From contig JAPSGI010000015.1 in NCBI GenBank assembly GCA_031177685.1, positions 1-64,000 on the forward strand: a stretch of 64,000 nucleotides of DNA. Reading direction: 5' to 3'. Position 1 is the first letter of the stretch; the number at the start of each line of letters is the position of its first letter. This DNA is from Solirubrobacteraceae bacterium. GTDB taxonomy: Bacteria > Actinomycetota > Thermoleophilia > Solirubrobacterales > Solirubrobacteraceae. Position numbers and translations under genes: made by a program. Positions 4,860-56,646 of this stretch are shown in pieces. Under the pieces are notes generated by a model that was given only the letters and a program-made list of their open reading frames with translations, was not told where the DNA came from and made no database searches.

Positions 4860-5900
4860 GTGTACGAGGAGCACGACGTCCCGCTGGCGCCGCTCACCAC
4901 GCTCCAGCTGGGCGGGCGCGCGCGGCGGCTCGTGGCGCCGCGAACCGACGACGAGCTCGTCGAGGCCATTCGCCACGGGCACGACCCGCTGCTCCTGCTG
5001 GCGGGCGGCAGCAACGTCGTGATCGCGGACTCCGGCTTCCCGGGCACGGTCGTCCGTGTGGCCACGTCCGGCGTAGAGATCGGCGAGCGCGACGGCCACG
5101 TGCGGCTCGACGTGGCGGCCGGCGAGGACTGGGACACGCTGGTGGAGCGCACGGTTGGCGAGGGCCTCGTGGGATTCGAGTGCCTGTCCGGCATCCCCGG
5201 CTCGGTGGGCGCGACGCCGATCCAGAACGTCGGGGCCTACGGGCAGGAGGTGGCCGAGACCGTCGTGTCGGTCCGCGCCTACGACCGCACGCAGGACCGC
5301 GTGGTCGACCTGGCGCCCGCGGAGTGCGGGTTCGCCTACCGCGCGAGCCGCTTCAAGCGCGCCGACCGCGGGCGCTTCGCGATCCTGCGCGTCGCCTACG
5401 AGCTGCCGCGCTCGCCGCGGTCGGCGCCGGTGCGCTACGCCGAGCTCGCGGACGCGCTGGGCGTCGAGCTGGGGGAGACGGCCGCGCTCGCCGAGGTGCG
5501 CGAGGCCGTCCTGGCGCTGCGTCGCGGCAAGGGCATGGTCGTGGACCCCGCGGACCCCGACTCGGTCAGCGCCGGCTCCTTCTTCACCAACCCCGTGCTC
5601 GAGGCGGCGGCGTTCGACGAGCTGCGCGAGCGGGCGGGCGCCGATCCCCCGGGCTGGCCCGAGCCCGACGGCCGCGTCAAGACCTCGGCGGCCTGGCTGA
5701 TCCAGCGCGCCGGCTTCGAGCGCGGCCACGGCGACGGGCGCATCGGCCTCTCGCGCAAGCACACGCTGGCCATCGTCAACCGCGGCGGCGGCAGCGCCGC
5801 CGAGCTGGTCGCTCTGGCGCGCGAGCTGCGCGCCGGCGTGCGCGAGCGCTTCGGCGTCACGCTGGAGCCCGAGCCGGTGCTGGTGGGGCTGGAGCTGTAG
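4860..5900 (+). CDS. murB: UDP-N-acetylenolpyruvoylglucosamine reductase (MurB)
   Basis: FAD enzyme that reduces UDP-GlcNAc-enolpyruvate to UDP-MurNAc with NADPH, in the cytoplasm. The 346-residue protein has the flavin-binding segment LLAGGSNVVIAD, then IPGSVGATPIQNVGAYGQEV, the YRASRFK patch, and SAGSFFTNP containing the catalytic Ser. These are features of type I MurB (the E. coli-like form). The GTG start at 4860 is favoured by the -10-like box; ATG 4839 is the alternative. It stands alone, 50 kb from the dcw cluster, where murB often lies between murC and ftsQ. A TTG-started glycosyltransferase follows 9 bp later. Confidence 0.93.
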   Translation: MYEEHDVPLAPLTTLQLGGRARRLVAPRTDDELVEAIRHGHDPLLLLAGGSNVVIADSGFPGTVVRVATSGVEIGERDGHVRLDVAAGEDWDTLVERTVGEGLVGFECLSGIPGSVGATPIQNVGAYGQEVAETVVSVRAYDRTQDRVVDLAPAECGFAYRASRFKRADRGRFAILRVAYELPRSPRSAPVRYAELADALGVELGETAALAEVREAVLALRRGKGMVVDPADPDSVSAGSFFTNPVLEAAAFDELRERAGADPPGWPEPDGRVKTSAAWLIQRAGFERGHGDGRIGLSRKHTLAIVNRGGGSAAELVALARELRAGVRERFGVTLEPEPVLVGLEL

Positions 5901-31294: not shown

Positions 31295-32149
31295 GTGAGT
31301 GTCGCGGCGCTGATGGCGGGGGTGGCGGCGGGGGTTGGCGTTTTTGCCGTCTGGGACCTGATCGCGGCGGTGGAGGGGGCGGTGCTCTCGCGTGGGCTCG
31401 CGCGGGCGGTCGCGCCGCTGCGGCGCGCCGGGGGAGAGGGGCGGGAACCGACGGCTCCCGAGCGGCGCCGGCTCGCCGTGCTCGCCGCCGCGGCGCTCCT
31501 GGGCGCCGGATGGTTGGTCGCGGGCCCGCTCGCCGGCGCGGTCCTGGCCGCCGGTGGGCCGTGGGCGGTGGTCGCCTTGGTGCGGGCGCGGCGGCGCCGC
31601 TGGCGTGAGGCGCTCGCCGCCGGCGCTCCGGTCGCGGCGCGGGCTCTGGCCGACGCGCTCGCGGGTCGGCACTCGCTGCGCGGGGCCCTATCCGCGGTGG
31701 CGGCCGACGGCGGCGTTGCGACTCCGGCCGGCGGCGAGCTGCGCGCCGTCGCCCGGGCGCTGGCGCTGGGAGAGCCGACCGAGGAGGCGCTCACGCGGCT
31801 GCGCGAGCGCGCGGGCCCCGGCCCGTGGGAGACGCTGGTCGCGGCGATGCTCCTGCAGCGCGAGGCGGGCGGCGACCTCGCGGGTCTGCTGCGCGGTACC
31901 GCGGACGCGCTCGAGGAAGCCGCGCGCCTGGAGCGCGACGCGCGCACCGCGACCGCCCAGGCGCGATTCACCGGCCTGCTGGTCTGCGCGCTCCCGTGCG
32001 CCGCCGCGGTCCTGGCGGAGCTGGCCCGCCCCGGCTACCTCGCAGGGCTCGCGCAGTCGCCACTGACGATCTGGCTCGCCGGCTGTGCCGTCGCGTTCCA
32101 GCTCACGGCCCTCCTCCTGATAACCCGCCTCGCCCGCATCCGCGAATGA
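31295..32149 (+). CDS. tadB: TadB-like type II/Tad secretion membrane protein
   Basis: A 284-residue inner-membrane platform protein. Hydrophobic helices lie at the N-terminus (LMAGVAAGVGVFAVWDLI), around residues 60-95 and in two C-terminal segments (LLVCALPCAAAVLAELA; LTIWLAGCAVAFQLTALLL). Between them the T2SSF helical domain reads PVAARALADALAGRHSLRGAL to REAGGDLAGLL. I placed the start at GTG 31295; ATG 31313 is possible, and the frame stays open upstream. Position after cpaF supports the call. Confidence 0.8.
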   Translation: MSVAALMAGVAAGVGVFAVWDLIAAVEGAVLSRGLARAVAPLRRAGGEGREPTAPERRRLAVLAAAALLGAGWLVAGPLAGAVLAAGGPWAVVALVRARRRRWREALAAGAPVAARALADALAGRHSLRGALSAVAADGGVATPAGGELRAVARALALGEPTEEALTRLRERAGPGPWETLVAAMLLQREAGGDLAGLLRGTADALEEAARLERDARTATAQARFTGLLVCALPCAAAVLAELARPGYLAGLAQSPLTIWLAGCAVAFQLTALLLITRLARIRE

Positions 32150-32164
32150 CCGCCCCACGAAATC

Positions 32165-32203
32165 GCGTGCAGTTAAGCCGCTATAGGCGGCTCAACGGCA
32201 CGC
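32165..32203. repeat. 39-nt imperfect palindrome
   Basis: Arms GCGTGC/GCACGC, GTT/AAC and AGCCGC/GCGGCT pair around a TATAG centre, interrupted by two single mismatches per arm. It lies between tadB and tadC. Its length and central CTATAG resemble the palindrome at 44918-44956, but the arms differ. It could be a transcription attenuator within the tad operon. Confidence 0.6.
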
Positions 32204-32276
32204 AAGTTGCGGGAGGCCGCGGCCGCGCCGGCGGGGCGAGCGGCGGGCGGGCGGGCCGTGCGGAAGGAGGCGCGCG

Positions 32277-44761: not shown

Positions 44762-44917
44762 GCGCCACGATCCGGTCACGCCGTTCGAGGAGGGACCATG
44801 GAGGAGTCGCGAAGCGGCGAGGCGCAGGCGCTCGCCGACCGCATGGACACGCTGGACGCCCGGCTGGCGAGCGTCGAGCGCCGCGTCAGGGAGCTCAGCC
44901 CGGACTCCCCAAGCGCG

Positions 44918-44956
44918 CTGTGGACTTTCCCGCCTATAGCGCGGATAAGTCCACAG
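44918..44956. repeat. 39-nt palindromic element, copy A
   Basis: Perfect 10-bp arms CTGTGGACTT and AAGTCCACAG flank a centre with CTATAG. The 22 nt at 44923-44944 are identical to 55718-55739. It coincides with the first frame change in the DUF2339 gene. An insertion of length 2 modulo 3, such as 41 bp, would explain the shift. Confidence 0.8.
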
Positions 44957-45710
44957 AGCTCGAGCCACAGCCGCCGGCACCCTTGCTTCCGGTCGCCCCG
45001 GCGCCCCTGCAGACCTGGCGCGTCGAGCTGGAGAACCTCCTCGGCGGCCGGCTGCTCGGGCTCGCCGGCGGCGTCGCCGTGCTGCTGGGCATCGCGTTCT
45101 TCGTGGCCGTGGCGATCGGCCGGGGCTGGATCGACGAGCCGGCGCGCGTGCTGCTCGCGCTCGTCGCCTCGCTGGCCCTCACGGCAGGGGGCGCGCTGCT
45201 GTACGAGCGCCGCGGGCACACGCAGGCGGCACTCGCCATGGCCGGCGCCGGCATCGCGGGGCTCTTCCTCACGCTCAGCGCCGCGACGCAGCTCTACGAA
45301 CTGGTCCCCGCGCCGCTGGCGCTGGCCGGCGCACTCGCCGCGGGGGCGGTGGCCACGGTCCTGTCGGTGCGCTGGGACGCGCGCACGCTCGGCGGCCTGG
45401 GCATCCTGGGCGCGCTGCTGGCGCCCGTGCTCACCGGCGCCGGCTCGGGAGACGTGACGGCGCTGTTCCTGGCGATCGCGCTGGCCGCGGCGGTCGGCGT
45501 GCTGGTGTGGCGCCGCTGGGAGTGGCTGGCGGTCGCCTCCTTCTGCGTGGTGGCGCCGCAGCTCGTCGCGTGGGCCTACGCGGATCCGTCCACGGCCGGG
45601 CTGCTGATCGTGCCGGCGGTGTTCTGGGCCCTGTTCGCCGCCGCCGCCCTCGGCTACGAGCTGCGGGTGCGCGCGGATCGCCCGCGCCCCGCGTCCGTCG
45701 GGCTGATCCT

Positions 45711-45736
45711 CGCCGCCGGCGCGCGCCGCCGGCGTC
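45711..45736 (+). repeat. 13-bp tandem duplication causing a frameshift
   Basis: Two adjacent 13-bp units share their first 11 bases (CGCCGCCGGCG). Deleting one unit restores the DUF2339 reading frame. Confidence 0.75.
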
Positions 45737-47298
45737 GCCTGGGGCGGCCTGGACTACGCCGGCCACCGCGCGCTCGCGGACGCCTTCCTGGCGGCGCTCG
45801 CGCTGGCGCACCTCGGCCTCGGCCTCGCCGCCGTGCGCTGCGGCCGCGTCGCGCGCGCGTTCGGGCTGGTGCTGATCGCCGGCGCGGTCGCGCTCGGCGA
45901 CATCGCCTTCGGACTCGTCTTCTCCGGGCCGGTGCAGGCGGCCGGCTGGGCGCTGAGCGCCGTCCTGATCGCCGGGCTGCGCCGGTTCGCGGGGGAGGAT
46001 CGCGACCTGCTGCGCCTCGGCCTCGGCGCGCAGCTGGCGCTCGCGGCGGTCCACGCCGTGGCGATCGACGCCACGCCGGGCGCGCTGGTCGCGGGCGGCG
46101 GGAACCTGCCGACCGCGGTGGCCGCGCTCGCGACGCTGGCCCTCGCCGCCTTCGCGTGCGCGCGCCTGAACCAGGACCGCGCGGCGGTCCGCATCGCGCT
46201 GGACGCCGTGGCGCTGACGGCCGTCGCGTACCTGACCGCCTTCGCGCTCGACGGCGCGGCGCTCGTGACGGCGTGGGCAATGCAGGCCGTCGCGCTGGGG
46301 CAGGTCGCCCGCCGCCAGCGCGACGAGGTGGCGGCCTACGGGTCGCTGGGGTTCCTCGCCCTCGCGACGGGGTACCTGCTCGCGTTCGACGTTTCGCCCG
46401 GCGCCGCGTTCGACGCGCCGGCGGCGCCGGGAGACGCGTTGCTCGCCGTCGTCGCGGTCGCCGCCGCGGCGTTCGCGCGCGCCCGCCAGCTGCCGGGCTC
46501 CGTCACGGCCCTCGCCGCCGATGCCCTCGCCGCGCTGATGGTCGCGTACGGCACCGCGGTCGCGCTCGCCGGCCCCGAGCTCGCGATCGCCTGGGCCGCG
46601 CAGGCCGCCGCCCTCGTCTCCCTCGCCGCCCGCCTGCGGGGAGCGCCGGCGCCGAGCGCGGTCGCCCGGGGCGACGACTCGGTACCCGAGCCACACGCCG
46701 TCGCCTTCCTCGCGGCGCTCGGCTTCGCCGCCCTCGCTGCCCTCCACGTGCTCGCGTTCGAGGCGCCACCCGGCGCGCTGGTCGAGGGCGTCGACGGGCT
46801 GACGGGTGCGGCCGGGGCGCTGCTGGCGATCGCGGCCACGGGGCTCGCCACGGCGCGGCTGGGGCCCGAGGCGCGCTGGCGCACCGCCGGCGCCGTGGCG
46901 GGGGCGGGCGCGCTGGTCTACCTCGGTTCGGTGGCCATCGTGACGGCGTTCCAGCCCGACGCCCTCTCCTTCCATCCGGGCCTCGCCGGACTGGAGGTGC
47001 GCCAGGAGGGCCAGGTGCTGCTCAGCGCCTTCTGGGGTCTCGTGGGACTGGCGGCGCTGATCGCGGGTCTGGTGCTGCAGCGCGCGCCGGCGCGGATCGC
47101 CGGGCTAGGGCTGCTCGTCCTGGCCCTCGCCAAGGTGTTCGCGTTCGACCTGGCGTCGCTGGACTCCATCTACCGCGTCCTGTCCCTGGTGGGCATCGGC
47201 CTCGTCCTGCTGGCCGGCGCCTTTGCCTGGCAGCGGCTGCGTCCGGGCCCGCCTCCCGCGGCGGTCACATAAACCGAACCGAACACCGCGCGACCGGC

Positions 47299-53452: not shown

Positions 53453-54425
53453 CGGCGCCGACGTCGTCTTCGTCGGCGGCGAGCGCGCCGAGGCGGAGGC
53501 CGTCCCCGCCGCGGGCTACGAGCTGCACCGGCTGCGCGTGGAGGGCCTGAGCCGGCGCAACCCGCTCAAGGCGGCGCGCGCCGTGTGGCGTGCCGCGGCG
53601 GCGACGCGCCGGGCGCGGCGGCTGCTGCGCGAGCTGGAGGCCGACGTCGTGCTGGGCGGCGGGGGATACGTGGCCGTGCCGGTGGGCCTGGCGGCGCGGC
53701 GCGAGCGCGTCCCGCTGGTGCTGACCGAGGCCGACTCGCACCTGGGCCTGGCCAACCGGCTGCTGGCGCCGTTCGCGCGCCGCGTGTGCCTGGCCTTCCC
53801 GATCGAGGGCCGTAAGGGGGAGAAGTTCCGCGTCACCGGGCGGCCGATCCCGCCGCCGGCCACCGACCGCGCCGCGGCGCGCCGGCGCTTCGACATCCCC
53901 CGCGACGAGGCGATGGTGCTGGTGTTCGGCGGGTCGCTGGGCGCGCGCTCGATCAACCAGGCGGCGATCGCGGCGTTCGCCGAGCCGCACTTCTTCGTGC
54001 TGCACGCCGCGGGGGTCCGCGACTTCGAGTCGCTGACCGCACCGGGGGAGCACTACGACCTGCGTCCCTACATCGAGGACTTCGGGGAGGCGCTGCTGGC
54101 CAGCGACCTCGTCGTGGCGCGGGCGGGCGGCTCGATCTTCGAGATCGCGGCCCACGGGCGGCCCGCGGTTCTGATCCCGTATCCCGACGCGACGGCCGAC
54201 CACCAGACGACCAACGCGCAGTGGATGGAGAGCGCGGGGGCGGCCGTCGTACTGGCCGACGACGAGCTGATGCCGATGCGCCTGCGCGAGACGGTGTACG
54301 CGCTGCTCGACGACCCCGAGCGCCTGGCGCAGATGCGCGCGGCGTCGCAGTCCCTGGCCCGCCCGGCCGCGGCCCGGGCGGTCGCCGCGCAGGTGCTCGC
54401 GGCGGCCGACGGGAGCGACGCGTGA
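53367..54425 (+). CDS. murG: Lipid II synthase (MurG, GT28)
   Basis: Transfers GlcNAc to lipid I on the cytoplasmic face. The 352-residue GT-B protein has VVIAAGGTAGHVVPALAVAD at the N-terminus, LGGGGYVAVPVGLAA, LVFGGSLGARSINQA, the donor site ARAGGSIFEIAAHGRPAVLIPYP and TADHQTTNAQWM. The ATG is fixed by the acceptor-loop motif 10 residues in. It overlaps ftsW by 86 bp and murC by 4 bp. Confidence 0.95.
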   Translation: MPTRVVIAAGGTAGHVVPALAVADALRADGADVVFVGGERAEAEAVPAAGYELHRLRVEGLSRRNPLKAARAVWRAAAATRRARRLLRELEADVVLGGGGYVAVPVGLAARRERVPLVLTEADSHLGLANRLLAPFARRVCLAFPIEGRKGEKFRVTGRPIPPPATDRAAARRRFDIPRDEAMVLVFGGSLGARSINQAAIAAFAEPHFFVLHAAGVRDFESLTAPGEHYDLRPYIEDFGEALLASDLVVARAGGSIFEIAAHGRPAVLIPYPDATADHQTTNAQWMESAGAAVVLADDELMPMRLRETVYALLDDPERLAQMRAASQSLARPAAARAVAAQVLAAADGSDA

Positions 54426-55762
54426 CAACCCAGCGCCCCTGGGAGGGGCGGCGCCTGCACTTCCTGGGAATCGGCGGGGCGGGGATGAGCGGGCTGGCGG
54501 TGGTCTCGGCGGCTCTCGGGGCATCCGTGACGGGGTCGGATGCGGCGGAGACGCCGTATCTGTCGCGCGTCCGGGCTGTCGGCATCTCGCCGGTCATGGG
54601 CCATGACGCGGGCAATCTGCCGGGCGGAAAAGACGGCTTTCAGGAGGGGGACTCCTTGGAGGTCGTCGTCTCGACCGCCATCTCCGCGGACAACCCCGAG
54701 CGGGCTGCTGCGCGCGAGCGCGGGCTGCGTGAGCTGCATCGGGCGGAGCTGCTGGCGCAGGTGTGCTCTTTGCGGCGGTGCATCGCGGTGTCCGGGACGC
54801 ATGGCAAGTCGACGACCGCGGCGATGCTGGTGCGGATCCTGCGCGCGGCCGGCCTGGAGCCGTCGTACCTGGTCGGCGCCGAGCTGACGGAGACGGGCAC
54901 CAACGCGGAGTGGGGGACCGGCGAGTGGCTCGTCGTGGAGGCCGACGAGTCCGACCGCTCGCTGCTGCACCTGCACCCGGAGATCGCCGTCGTCACGAAC
55001 CTCGAGCTCGACCATCACTCGACCTACGCCTCCCGGCTGGACCTCGAGGAGACGATGCGGCAGTTCCTCTCGCAGGCCGAGCGGGTGGTCGACTGGGAGG
55101 AGCCCGACGTGGGCCTCGACGCGGACGGGTCGCGGTTCGCGTGGGCGGGCGTCGAGGTGCACCTGCCGGTGCCCGGGCGCCACAACGCGCTCAACGCGGC
55201 GGCGGCGCTGGAGACGGCGCGGCTCGCCGGCGTGGAGCCGGCGGTCGCGGCGGCGGCGCTGGCCGACTTTCGCCCGGCCGGCCGTCGGTTCGAGCGCGTG
55301 GGGGAGACGGAGTCCGGCGCCGCGGTCTACGACGACTACGCGCACCACCCGACCGAGGTCGCCGCCACGCTGGCGGCGGCACGGACGCTGAATCCGCGCC
55401 GCGTCGTCGCCGCCTTCCAGCCGCACCTGTACTCCCGCACCGCCGCCCTGTGGCGCGAGTTCGGCGCCGCGCTGGCCGCCGCCGACGTGTGCGTCGTCCT
55501 CGACGTCTACCGCGCGCGGGAGGACACGGCCGACTGGCCCGGCATCGGCGGCCGGCTGATCGCCGCCGCGGCGGCCGACGCCGCCGGCGGCAGGACGGTC
55601 GCGTGGCTGCCGCGCCTCGACGACGCCGAGGCGTTCCTGCGCGCGCAGCTGCGCGCCGGCGACCTCCTGCTGACCCTCGGCGCGGGGAACGTCGACGACC
55701 TCGCCCGCCGCATTGTTGACTTTCCCGCCTATAGCGCGGGTAACTCCACTGGGCAACGCTGA
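54422..55762 (+). CDS. murC: UDP-MurNAc:L-alanine ligase (MurC)
   Basis: Adds the first stem-peptide residue. The 446-residue protein has HFLGIGGAGMSGLAVV, the ATP loop VSGTHGKSTTAAML near residue 122, LVVEADESDRSLL, NLELDHHSTY and YDDYAHHPTEVAATL. Between GHDAGNL and VVVSTAIS there is a short extra loop. The normal C-terminus appears to end near GAGNVDDLARRI; the last 14 residues (from VDFPAYSAGNST) are encoded by the palindromic element, which also leads to the stop. GTG start overlaps murG. Confidence 0.94.
   Translation: MTTQRPWEGRRLHFLGIGGAGMSGLAVVSAALGASVTGSDAAETPYLSRVRAVGISPVMGHDAGNLPGGKDGFQEGDSLEVVVSTAISADNPERAAARERGLRELHRAELLAQVCSLRRCIAVSGTHGKSTTAAMLVRILRAAGLEPSYLVGAELTETGTNAEWGTGEWLVVEADESDRSLLHLHPEIAVVTNLELDHHSTYASRLDLEETMRQFLSQAERVVDWEEPDVGLDADGSRFAWAGVEVHLPVPGRHNALNAAAALETARLAGVEPAVAAAALADFRPAGRRFERVGETESGAAVYDDYAHHPTEVAATLAAARTLNPRRVVAAFQPHLYSRTAALWREFGAALAAADVCVVLDVYRAREDTADWPGIGGRLIAAAAADAAGGRTVAWLPRLDDAEAFLRAQLRAGDLLLTLGAGNVDDLARRIVDFPAYSAGNSTGQR
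55713..55751. repeat. 39-nt palindromic element, copy B
   Basis: Aligned over 39 nt with copy A at 44918-44956; the 22 nt at 55718-55739 are identical. The arms are more diverged here, but CCCGC and GCGGG still pair around the CTATAG centre. It encodes the end of MurC and spans the murC/ftsQ junction. Confidence 0.8.
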
Positions 55763-55812: not shown

Positions 55813-56646
55813 GTGTCCCGGTCGCCGGCCATCGCCCTGCGTGCTCCGCTGCGCGCGCTGACGCGGCGGCGGCGACGTTCCCGGCGGCTGACCCTCTCCG
55901 CGCACGGTCGCCGGCGAGCCGCGGCGGCGCTTCTCCTGGCCGCGCTGGCCGCCGGTGGGTGGATGTGGCTGCGCGACTCCTCGCTCGTCCGCGTCGAGCG
56001 CGTCGCGGTTCACGGCCTCAGCGGCGGCGCCGAGTCCGCCGCGGTGCGCGACGCGCTCACGCGCGCGGCCCGGGACATGACGACGCTGCACGTCCGCCAC
56101 GAGCGCCTGCGCGCCGCCGTCTCGCCGTATCCGATCGTCAAGGACGTGAAGGTCACCACCGACTTCCCGCACGGAATGCGCATCGAGGTCGTCGAGCACG
56201 ACCCGGTGGCCGCCGTGGAGCTCGACGGCCGGCGCGTGCCCGTGGCCGCCGATGGCACGCTGCTGCGCGGCCGCCCGGCGGCCAACGACCTGGTCGCGCT
56301 GTCCGTGCCCAGCGCCAACGGCGGCGGGCGGCTCACCAGCCGCCGCGGCCGGGCCGCGGTCGCCGTCATGGGCGCGGCGCCCAGGCAGCTGCGCCCGTTC
56401 GTGACCGGCGTGCAGTTCGGCCCGGAGGGGATGCGCCTGAACCTCCACAACGGTCCGGTCGTCCAGCTCGGCGACGCGACCCGCGCCCGCGCCAAGTGGC
56501 TCGCGATCGCGCGCGTGCTGGGCGATCCGCGCGCGGCCGGCGCCTCCTACCTCGACGTGCGCGTCCCCGAGCGCCCCGTCGCGGGCCGCTTCGACGACCC
56601 GACCATGCCCGTGAGCAACCCTCAAGCAGTGGTCGAGAATCCGTGA
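55813..56646 (+). CDS. ftsQ: Division protein FtsQ
   Basis: Bitopic divisome protein, 277 residues. A basic cytoplasmic tail of about 35 residues, one helix (AAAALLLAALAAGGWMWL), then a POTRA domain (VRVERVAVHGLSGGAESAAV) and the FtsQ beta domain (IVKDVKVTTDFPHGMRIEVVEHDPVAAVE). GTG start; no clear ribosome site. The sequence supports FtsQ/DivIB moderately well and its place before ftsZ makes it firm. Confidence 0.9.
   Translation: MSRSPAIALRAPLRALTRRRRRSRRLTLSAHGRRRAAAALLLAALAAGGWMWLRDSSLVRVERVAVHGLSGGAESAAVRDALTRAARDMTTLHVRHERLRAAVSPYPIVKDVKVTTDFPHGMRIEVVEHDPVAAVELDGRRVPVAADGTLLRGRPAANDLVALSVPSANGGGRLTSRRGRAAVAVMGAAPRQLRPFVTGVQFGPEGMRLNLHNGPVVQLGDATRARAKWLAIARVLGDPRAAGASYLDVRVPERPVAGRFDDPTMPVSNPQAVVENP

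Follow-up and report, generated by a model that had tools for sequence, protein, structure and literature searches.

The MurC protein of this Solirubrobacteraceae bacterium ends in a short C-terminal tail, most of which is encoded by a palindromic sequence. The tail is best read as the by-product of one solo copy of a REP-like palindromic element, and is itself probably neutral. We consider it probable, though well short of certain, that this copy belongs to a system in which an AbiEi-DUF559 gene lies between two palindromes. A broader proposal, to which we give somewhat less than even weight, is that AbiEi-DUF559 proteins are the mobilising nucleases of previously unrecognised palindrome-ended mobile elements across the Actinomycetota. 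Each protein would co-evolve with its own palindrome, and solo copies of that palindrome, ~36 bp long, would be dispersed as well, in places within core genes such as murC.

The C-terminus of MurC and its gene junction

The window is the whole stretch of DNA analysed, 64,000 nucleotides in length, and contains the following features.

54422..55762, + strand: murC, 446 aa (translation, Pfam domains); residues 432-446 are the extra tail and the stop codon TGA is at 55760-55762
55715..55749, no strand: palindrome copy B of family 1, core GTTGACTTTCCCGCCTATAGCGCGGGTAACTCCAC; pattern match 55718-55746 with 0 mismatches, 45-nt covariance-model match 55710-55754 (45.6 bits)
55813..56646, + strand: ftsQ (FtsQ-type POTRA, domain match), now the 3' neighbour of murC
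4860..5900, + strand: murB (gene call), apart from the murC junction; holds the genome's only MurB_C match (5493-5885)
44915..44959, no strand: palindrome copy A of family 1, close to the 5' end of a membrane-protein gene that is in different reading frames on the two sides of the copy
32162..32206, no strand: second-family palindrome, 12 nt 3' of the stop of the gene at 31295-32149; 30/35 match to a nuclease-gene palindrome on contig C1

MurC is composed of Mur_ligase, Mur_ligase_M and Mur_ligase_C domains, the last of which spans residues 288-422 according to Pfam, and most matches in relatives stop at residues 429-440, near residue 433. The catalytic part is therefore complete ahead of the tail, as an earlier, sequence-only reading of this DNA had proposed. 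The tail, VDFPAYSAGNSTGQR, starts at residue 432 (GTT, 55715), exactly where the 35-nt palindrome core begins, and the core read in the murC frame gives residues 432-443 (VDFPAYSAGNST). Twelve tail residues thus come from the core, the last codon being finished by the flank, whilst the terminal GQR is encoded by flanking DNA. The sequence-only reading had correctly placed a palindrome at the end of murC; it had also drawn both the last residues and the stop codon from this copy, which holds for the residues, but the TGA lies just beyond the palindrome, and the tail following RRI numbers 15 residues rather than 14.

That reading took a shared tail in the MurC proteins of distant relatives whose DNA has no such palindrome as evidence against a C-terminus acquired from the repeat. 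None of the 27 other MurC proteins whose C-terminus could be read has a VDFPAYS-like tail, so that it occurs at one of 28 loci when the protein described here is included. The GAG motif and the stop are separated by a median length of 15 in relatives, compared with 26 here; the few relatives with long MurC tails have ones unrelated in sequence. The absence of the tail from these 27 relatives, coupled with the dispersed and patchy occurrence of the repeat, supports the claim that the repeat supplied the C-terminus. At one locus in another genome (L051, G040), murC and murB are apparently fused in a single reading frame.

In the only congener examined, MurC ends LARRLVA* and the start of murB overlaps the murC stop (ATGA); the palindrome described here occupies the place where murB begins in that genome. 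As the only MurB_C match of the present genome falls within the gene at 4860-5900, the place of murB differs from that in the congener. The suggestion that many genomes have murB at the murC/ftsQ junction is borne out for part of the relatives, including this congener: a murB-like start lies within 450 nt of murC in at least eight of 28 loci, a lower bound since the motif used misses variants. In the present lineage, murB is found elsewhere and the murC frame continues through the palindrome at what is now its junction. A similar situation is seen at 32162-32206, where the congener's versions of the two flanking genes have a 4-nt overlap. At two junctions, then, a palindrome is present here, whereas the congener lacks it and has genes that overlap by 4 nt. 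The two genomes share only ~71-80% identity and the congener genome is 72% complete, making it too distant and incomplete to provide a strict empty site; at the murC junction, the next gene also differs between them.

A dispersed palindrome family with a shared grammar

A degenerate pattern identified at least 39 copies of the family in the 3.15 Mb genome, against none for a reversed-pattern control, and at least two palindrome families are present in this genome. Gene calls from a simple gene caller trained on the window place 14 of the 39 copies between convergent genes, 18 between tandem genes, two between divergent genes and five inside called genes. Since junctions in the window are mostly tandem (40/57), convergent junctions are over-represented among the copies. 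The closest gene 3' end lies a median of 5 nt from a copy, and several genes end inside one. Variation between copies within this genome is limited to certain columns, and the two arms vary independently, which fits a protein that reads the duplex better than it fits a hairpin. A simple RNA hairpin or terminator was rejected as the whole explanation, given this independent variation, the copies in coding sequence and the lack of any Rfam match within the window.

MurC is one of several genes with palindrome-encoded sequence. One copy lies in frame inside the HHH_6 domain of an error-prone DNA polymerase (L084, 1498-1532), so labelled from its best NCBIfam model, PRK05672, which scores under its cut-off for this partial gene. 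When the polymerase is aligned with E. coli Pol III alpha, the gaps at the copy total 12 residues, the length of the copy-encoded peptide CGVDRDIGGKLN. Another copy in the same genome is in frame inside an SMC hinge domain (L099, 1498-1532), a segment for which a PDB search returned nothing significant, and a third closes a putative glycosidase with VDLAAYIAVNST, which resembles the MurC tail. Within the window, the membrane-protein gene at 44798-47272 has its start (ATG, 44798) in one frame and its membrane part in another, with copy A at the frame change; a further frame change occurs near 45.7-45.8 kb, and the gene may be degraded or may contain assembly errors.

A covariance model built from 30 copies from several genomes matched 36 of 121 genomes, with 51 matches in the genome described here, although one copy can match on both strands; it had no match in the 72% complete congener. 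The copies share a grammar, [outer stem] GASTT NN [inner stem] loop with YAT [inner stem'] NN AASTC [outer stem'], in which the stems vary between genomes yet remain paired, with changes on both sides in 13 of 19 pairs. The stem covariation score is 0.452, whilst shuffles reach 0.135 and slid partners no more than 0.104; the sequences were gathered with a palindromic pattern, of which the outer eight pairs were not part. In view of its dispersal, its patchy distribution and its in-frame copies elsewhere, the palindrome was reasonably described as mobile-looking, and it is from these properties that we infer mobility.

A first, tighter pattern found no match in a scan of genome contigs, whilst a looser one matched nine contigs; one Actinomycetota MAG accounts for four of these and a single MAG labelled Acidobacteria for two. 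Similar palindromes were seen at loci L131-L138 in MAGs labelled Actinomycetota, Acidobacteria and Acidimicrobiia, several of them palindromic beyond the searched pattern.

Palindromes at the ends of AbiEi-DUF559 genes

Locus L156 has a gene for an AbiEi_4 plus DUF559 protein between two palindromes, and palindromes likewise bracket an AbiEi-DUF559 gene on contig C29 of the present genome (L244). DUF559 loci were subsequently drawn from family searches and chosen regardless of palindromes. Around 68 such genes, the windows at the gene ends (21,080 bp) contain 15 grammar palindromes and the remaining 214,554 bp contain none; under random placement the chance of this is ~0.0895 to the power 15, near 2e-16, if relatedness is ignored. 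When any strong palindrome is counted without assuming the grammar, 25 lie in the gene-end windows and eight elsewhere; phylum-wide, among 93 genes including those of other families, the corresponding numbers are 32 and 10. None of 30 MurC control loci has a palindrome. With the scans used, around half or more of the nuclease genes have no clear palindrome.

Many of these genes have palindromes of their own sequence at set positions, centred ~24-51 nt upstream of the conserved protein start in the order to which this genome belongs and ~5-40 nt beyond the stop. An ATG is often present in the loop of the 5' palindrome (e.g. L219, L223 and L227), and the start codon may therefore sit in a hairpin loop. 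The two ends of a gene also resemble one another: at least 23 of 30 nt are shared in 27 of 92 genes, two of which (L280 and L299) may be window artefacts, compared with one in 1000 mismatched-gene pairs. Outside the order, the palindromes at the two ends of one gene (L320) are perfect and identical but for a single loop base, and in another (L327) the two ends differ at several stem positions with compensating changes. The palindromes of nuclease genes also best match the dispersed copies of their own genome in seven of seven genomes, each compared with the six others, the best matches reaching 30-34 of 35 positions. DUF559 nucleases occur in 86 of the 121 relatives, dispersed copies are many where nuclease genes are few, and one genome (G086) has a palindrome match yet no DUF559 match. 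The architecture of palindrome, AbiEi-DUF559 gene and palindrome recurs in other actinobacterial families. As far as sequence can indicate, these observations suggest that the dispersed palindromes are tied to AbiEi-DUF559 nuclease genes.

The N-terminal half of the nuclease protein matches AbiEi models, which describe a winged helix, and is joined to a nuclease domain of the DUF559/MTES_1575 (Vsr-like) type. An alignment of 22 proteins reveals a conserved glutamate, a D in a VDF-like motif, E-x-DG, an H and a D. A PDB search with the nuclease returned no significant match. The conserved residues are consistent with the Vsr-like/EDxHD nuclease class (named in PMC6083498), an assignment of our own that relies on weak sequence similarity.

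Proposed mechanism, known systems and competing explanations

AbiEi antitoxins bind inverted repeats that precede the genes encoding them (PMC7319586). This property, together with the N-terminal AbiEi match and the EDxHD-like residues, makes it natural to model the winged helix as the part that recognises the palindrome and the nuclease as the part that cuts. The winged helix would read the palindrome and the nuclease would nick or cut it, perhaps as a hairpin or cruciform. Repair would then place copies of the palindrome, either alone or together with the gene, at new sites, as is proposed for RAYT transposases and REPs, and copies would persist in short 3' spacers or in frame. Mobilisation of the palindromes by the AbiEi-DUF559 nuclease is thus what we infer from this arrangement. 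Literature searches that covered a minority of subscription papers turned up nothing connecting DUF559 with such palindromes.

The closest known counterparts are the REP elements (GTAG/CGTC) with their RAYT transposases (Di Nocera et al. 2013, PMC3733652). In common with these, the palindromes described here are dispersed, fall in the 20-40 bp range and adjoin gene 3' ends (39 copies, median 5 nt); they supply C-termini or in-frame peptides, with DnaE2 also among the REP hosts (PMC3733652); and a single linked gene, with the same palindromes on either side, encodes a DNA-cutting enzyme. Unlike in REP/RAYT systems, the linked protein is an AbiEi winged helix joined to a DUF559 nuclease and the stems are gene-specific. 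On inspection, the aligned copies contain no unpaired GTAG/CGTC tag and pairing reaches their edges, and the genome, 96.6% complete, contains no match to the Y1 tyrosine transposase (PF01797). Lacking both the tag and the RAYT, the system is classed as REP/RAYT-like rather than as a member. Rickettsia palindromic elements (RPE, as described in PMC3733652) are likewise found in frame in essential genes, but the palindromes described here are shorter, linked to nuclease genes and from another phylum, a separation made by description only. With EDxHD (Vsr-like) homing endonucleases the resemblance lies, as far as weak sequence similarity allows, in the E, D, ExD, H and D columns conserved in the alignment, and in a nuclease gene beside its presumed site; the gene here is not in an intron or intein, its protein has a winged-helix domain, and the site is a palindrome at both ends with many solo copies. 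Finally, AbiEi of the AbiE type IV toxin-antitoxin system resembles the N-terminal half of these proteins and binds inverted repeats (PMC7319586), but here a C-terminal nuclease domain replaces the usual AbiEi C-terminal domain.

Three other explanations merit consideration. The palindromes could be operators and terminators rather than mobile ends: the AbiEi winged helix would autoregulate through the 5' palindrome, the 3' one would end transcription and the dispersed copies would be regulatory or terminator sites of the host. The binding of AbiEi proteins to inverted repeats upstream of their own genes (PMC7319586), the placement of copies at gene 3' ends and convergent junctions, and the independent variation of the arms, as in a duplex binding site, would all agree with such a role. 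It is nevertheless unlikely, as copies also lie in frame within coding sequences, the 3' and 5' palindromes of a gene are almost identical in sequence, the distribution is patchy, with none found in the 72% complete congener, and the overlapping genes at two congener junctions leave no room for a site.

A quite improbable scenario is that an unrelated transposase, which may since have been lost, spread the palindromes in the manner of MITEs, and that the nuclease genes simply acquired them or make use of them, for instance by homing into palindromes that serve as target sites. Nucleases of the EDxHD/Vsr-like class (named in PMC6083498) are familiar as homing endonucleases, homing into a palindrome would leave the gene between two copies of its target, and copies greatly outnumber nuclease genes. 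However, the palindrome sequence is specific to the gene, the dispersed copies follow that gene genome by genome, and the palindrome overlaps the gene start at a fixed position. The third explanation, in which a RAYT (Y1 tyrosine) transposase moved a REP family of the classical kind, would account for the size of the copies, their placement at 3' ends and the intragenic copies in DNA-repair genes, all of which fit published REPs (PMC3733652). It is largely refuted and very improbable, because the genome, 96.6% complete, has no Y1_Tnp match, the copies look palindromic to their ends with no tag evident by inspection, and the palindromes cluster at the ends of nuclease genes. The reading in which the MurC tail comes from a solo copy of a palindrome-flanked AbiEi-DUF559 system is preferred.

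MurC, the error-prone DNA polymerase and SMC are clear cases of repeats providing coding sequence to core proteins. DUF559 is common in these relatives, while its Pfam family is still listed as of 'unknown function', and the matched palindromes would give it a role. If the proposal is correct, the system would be a REP/RAYT counterpart based on a different nuclease and would offer many natural protein-palindrome pairs for studying the evolution of DNA recognition.
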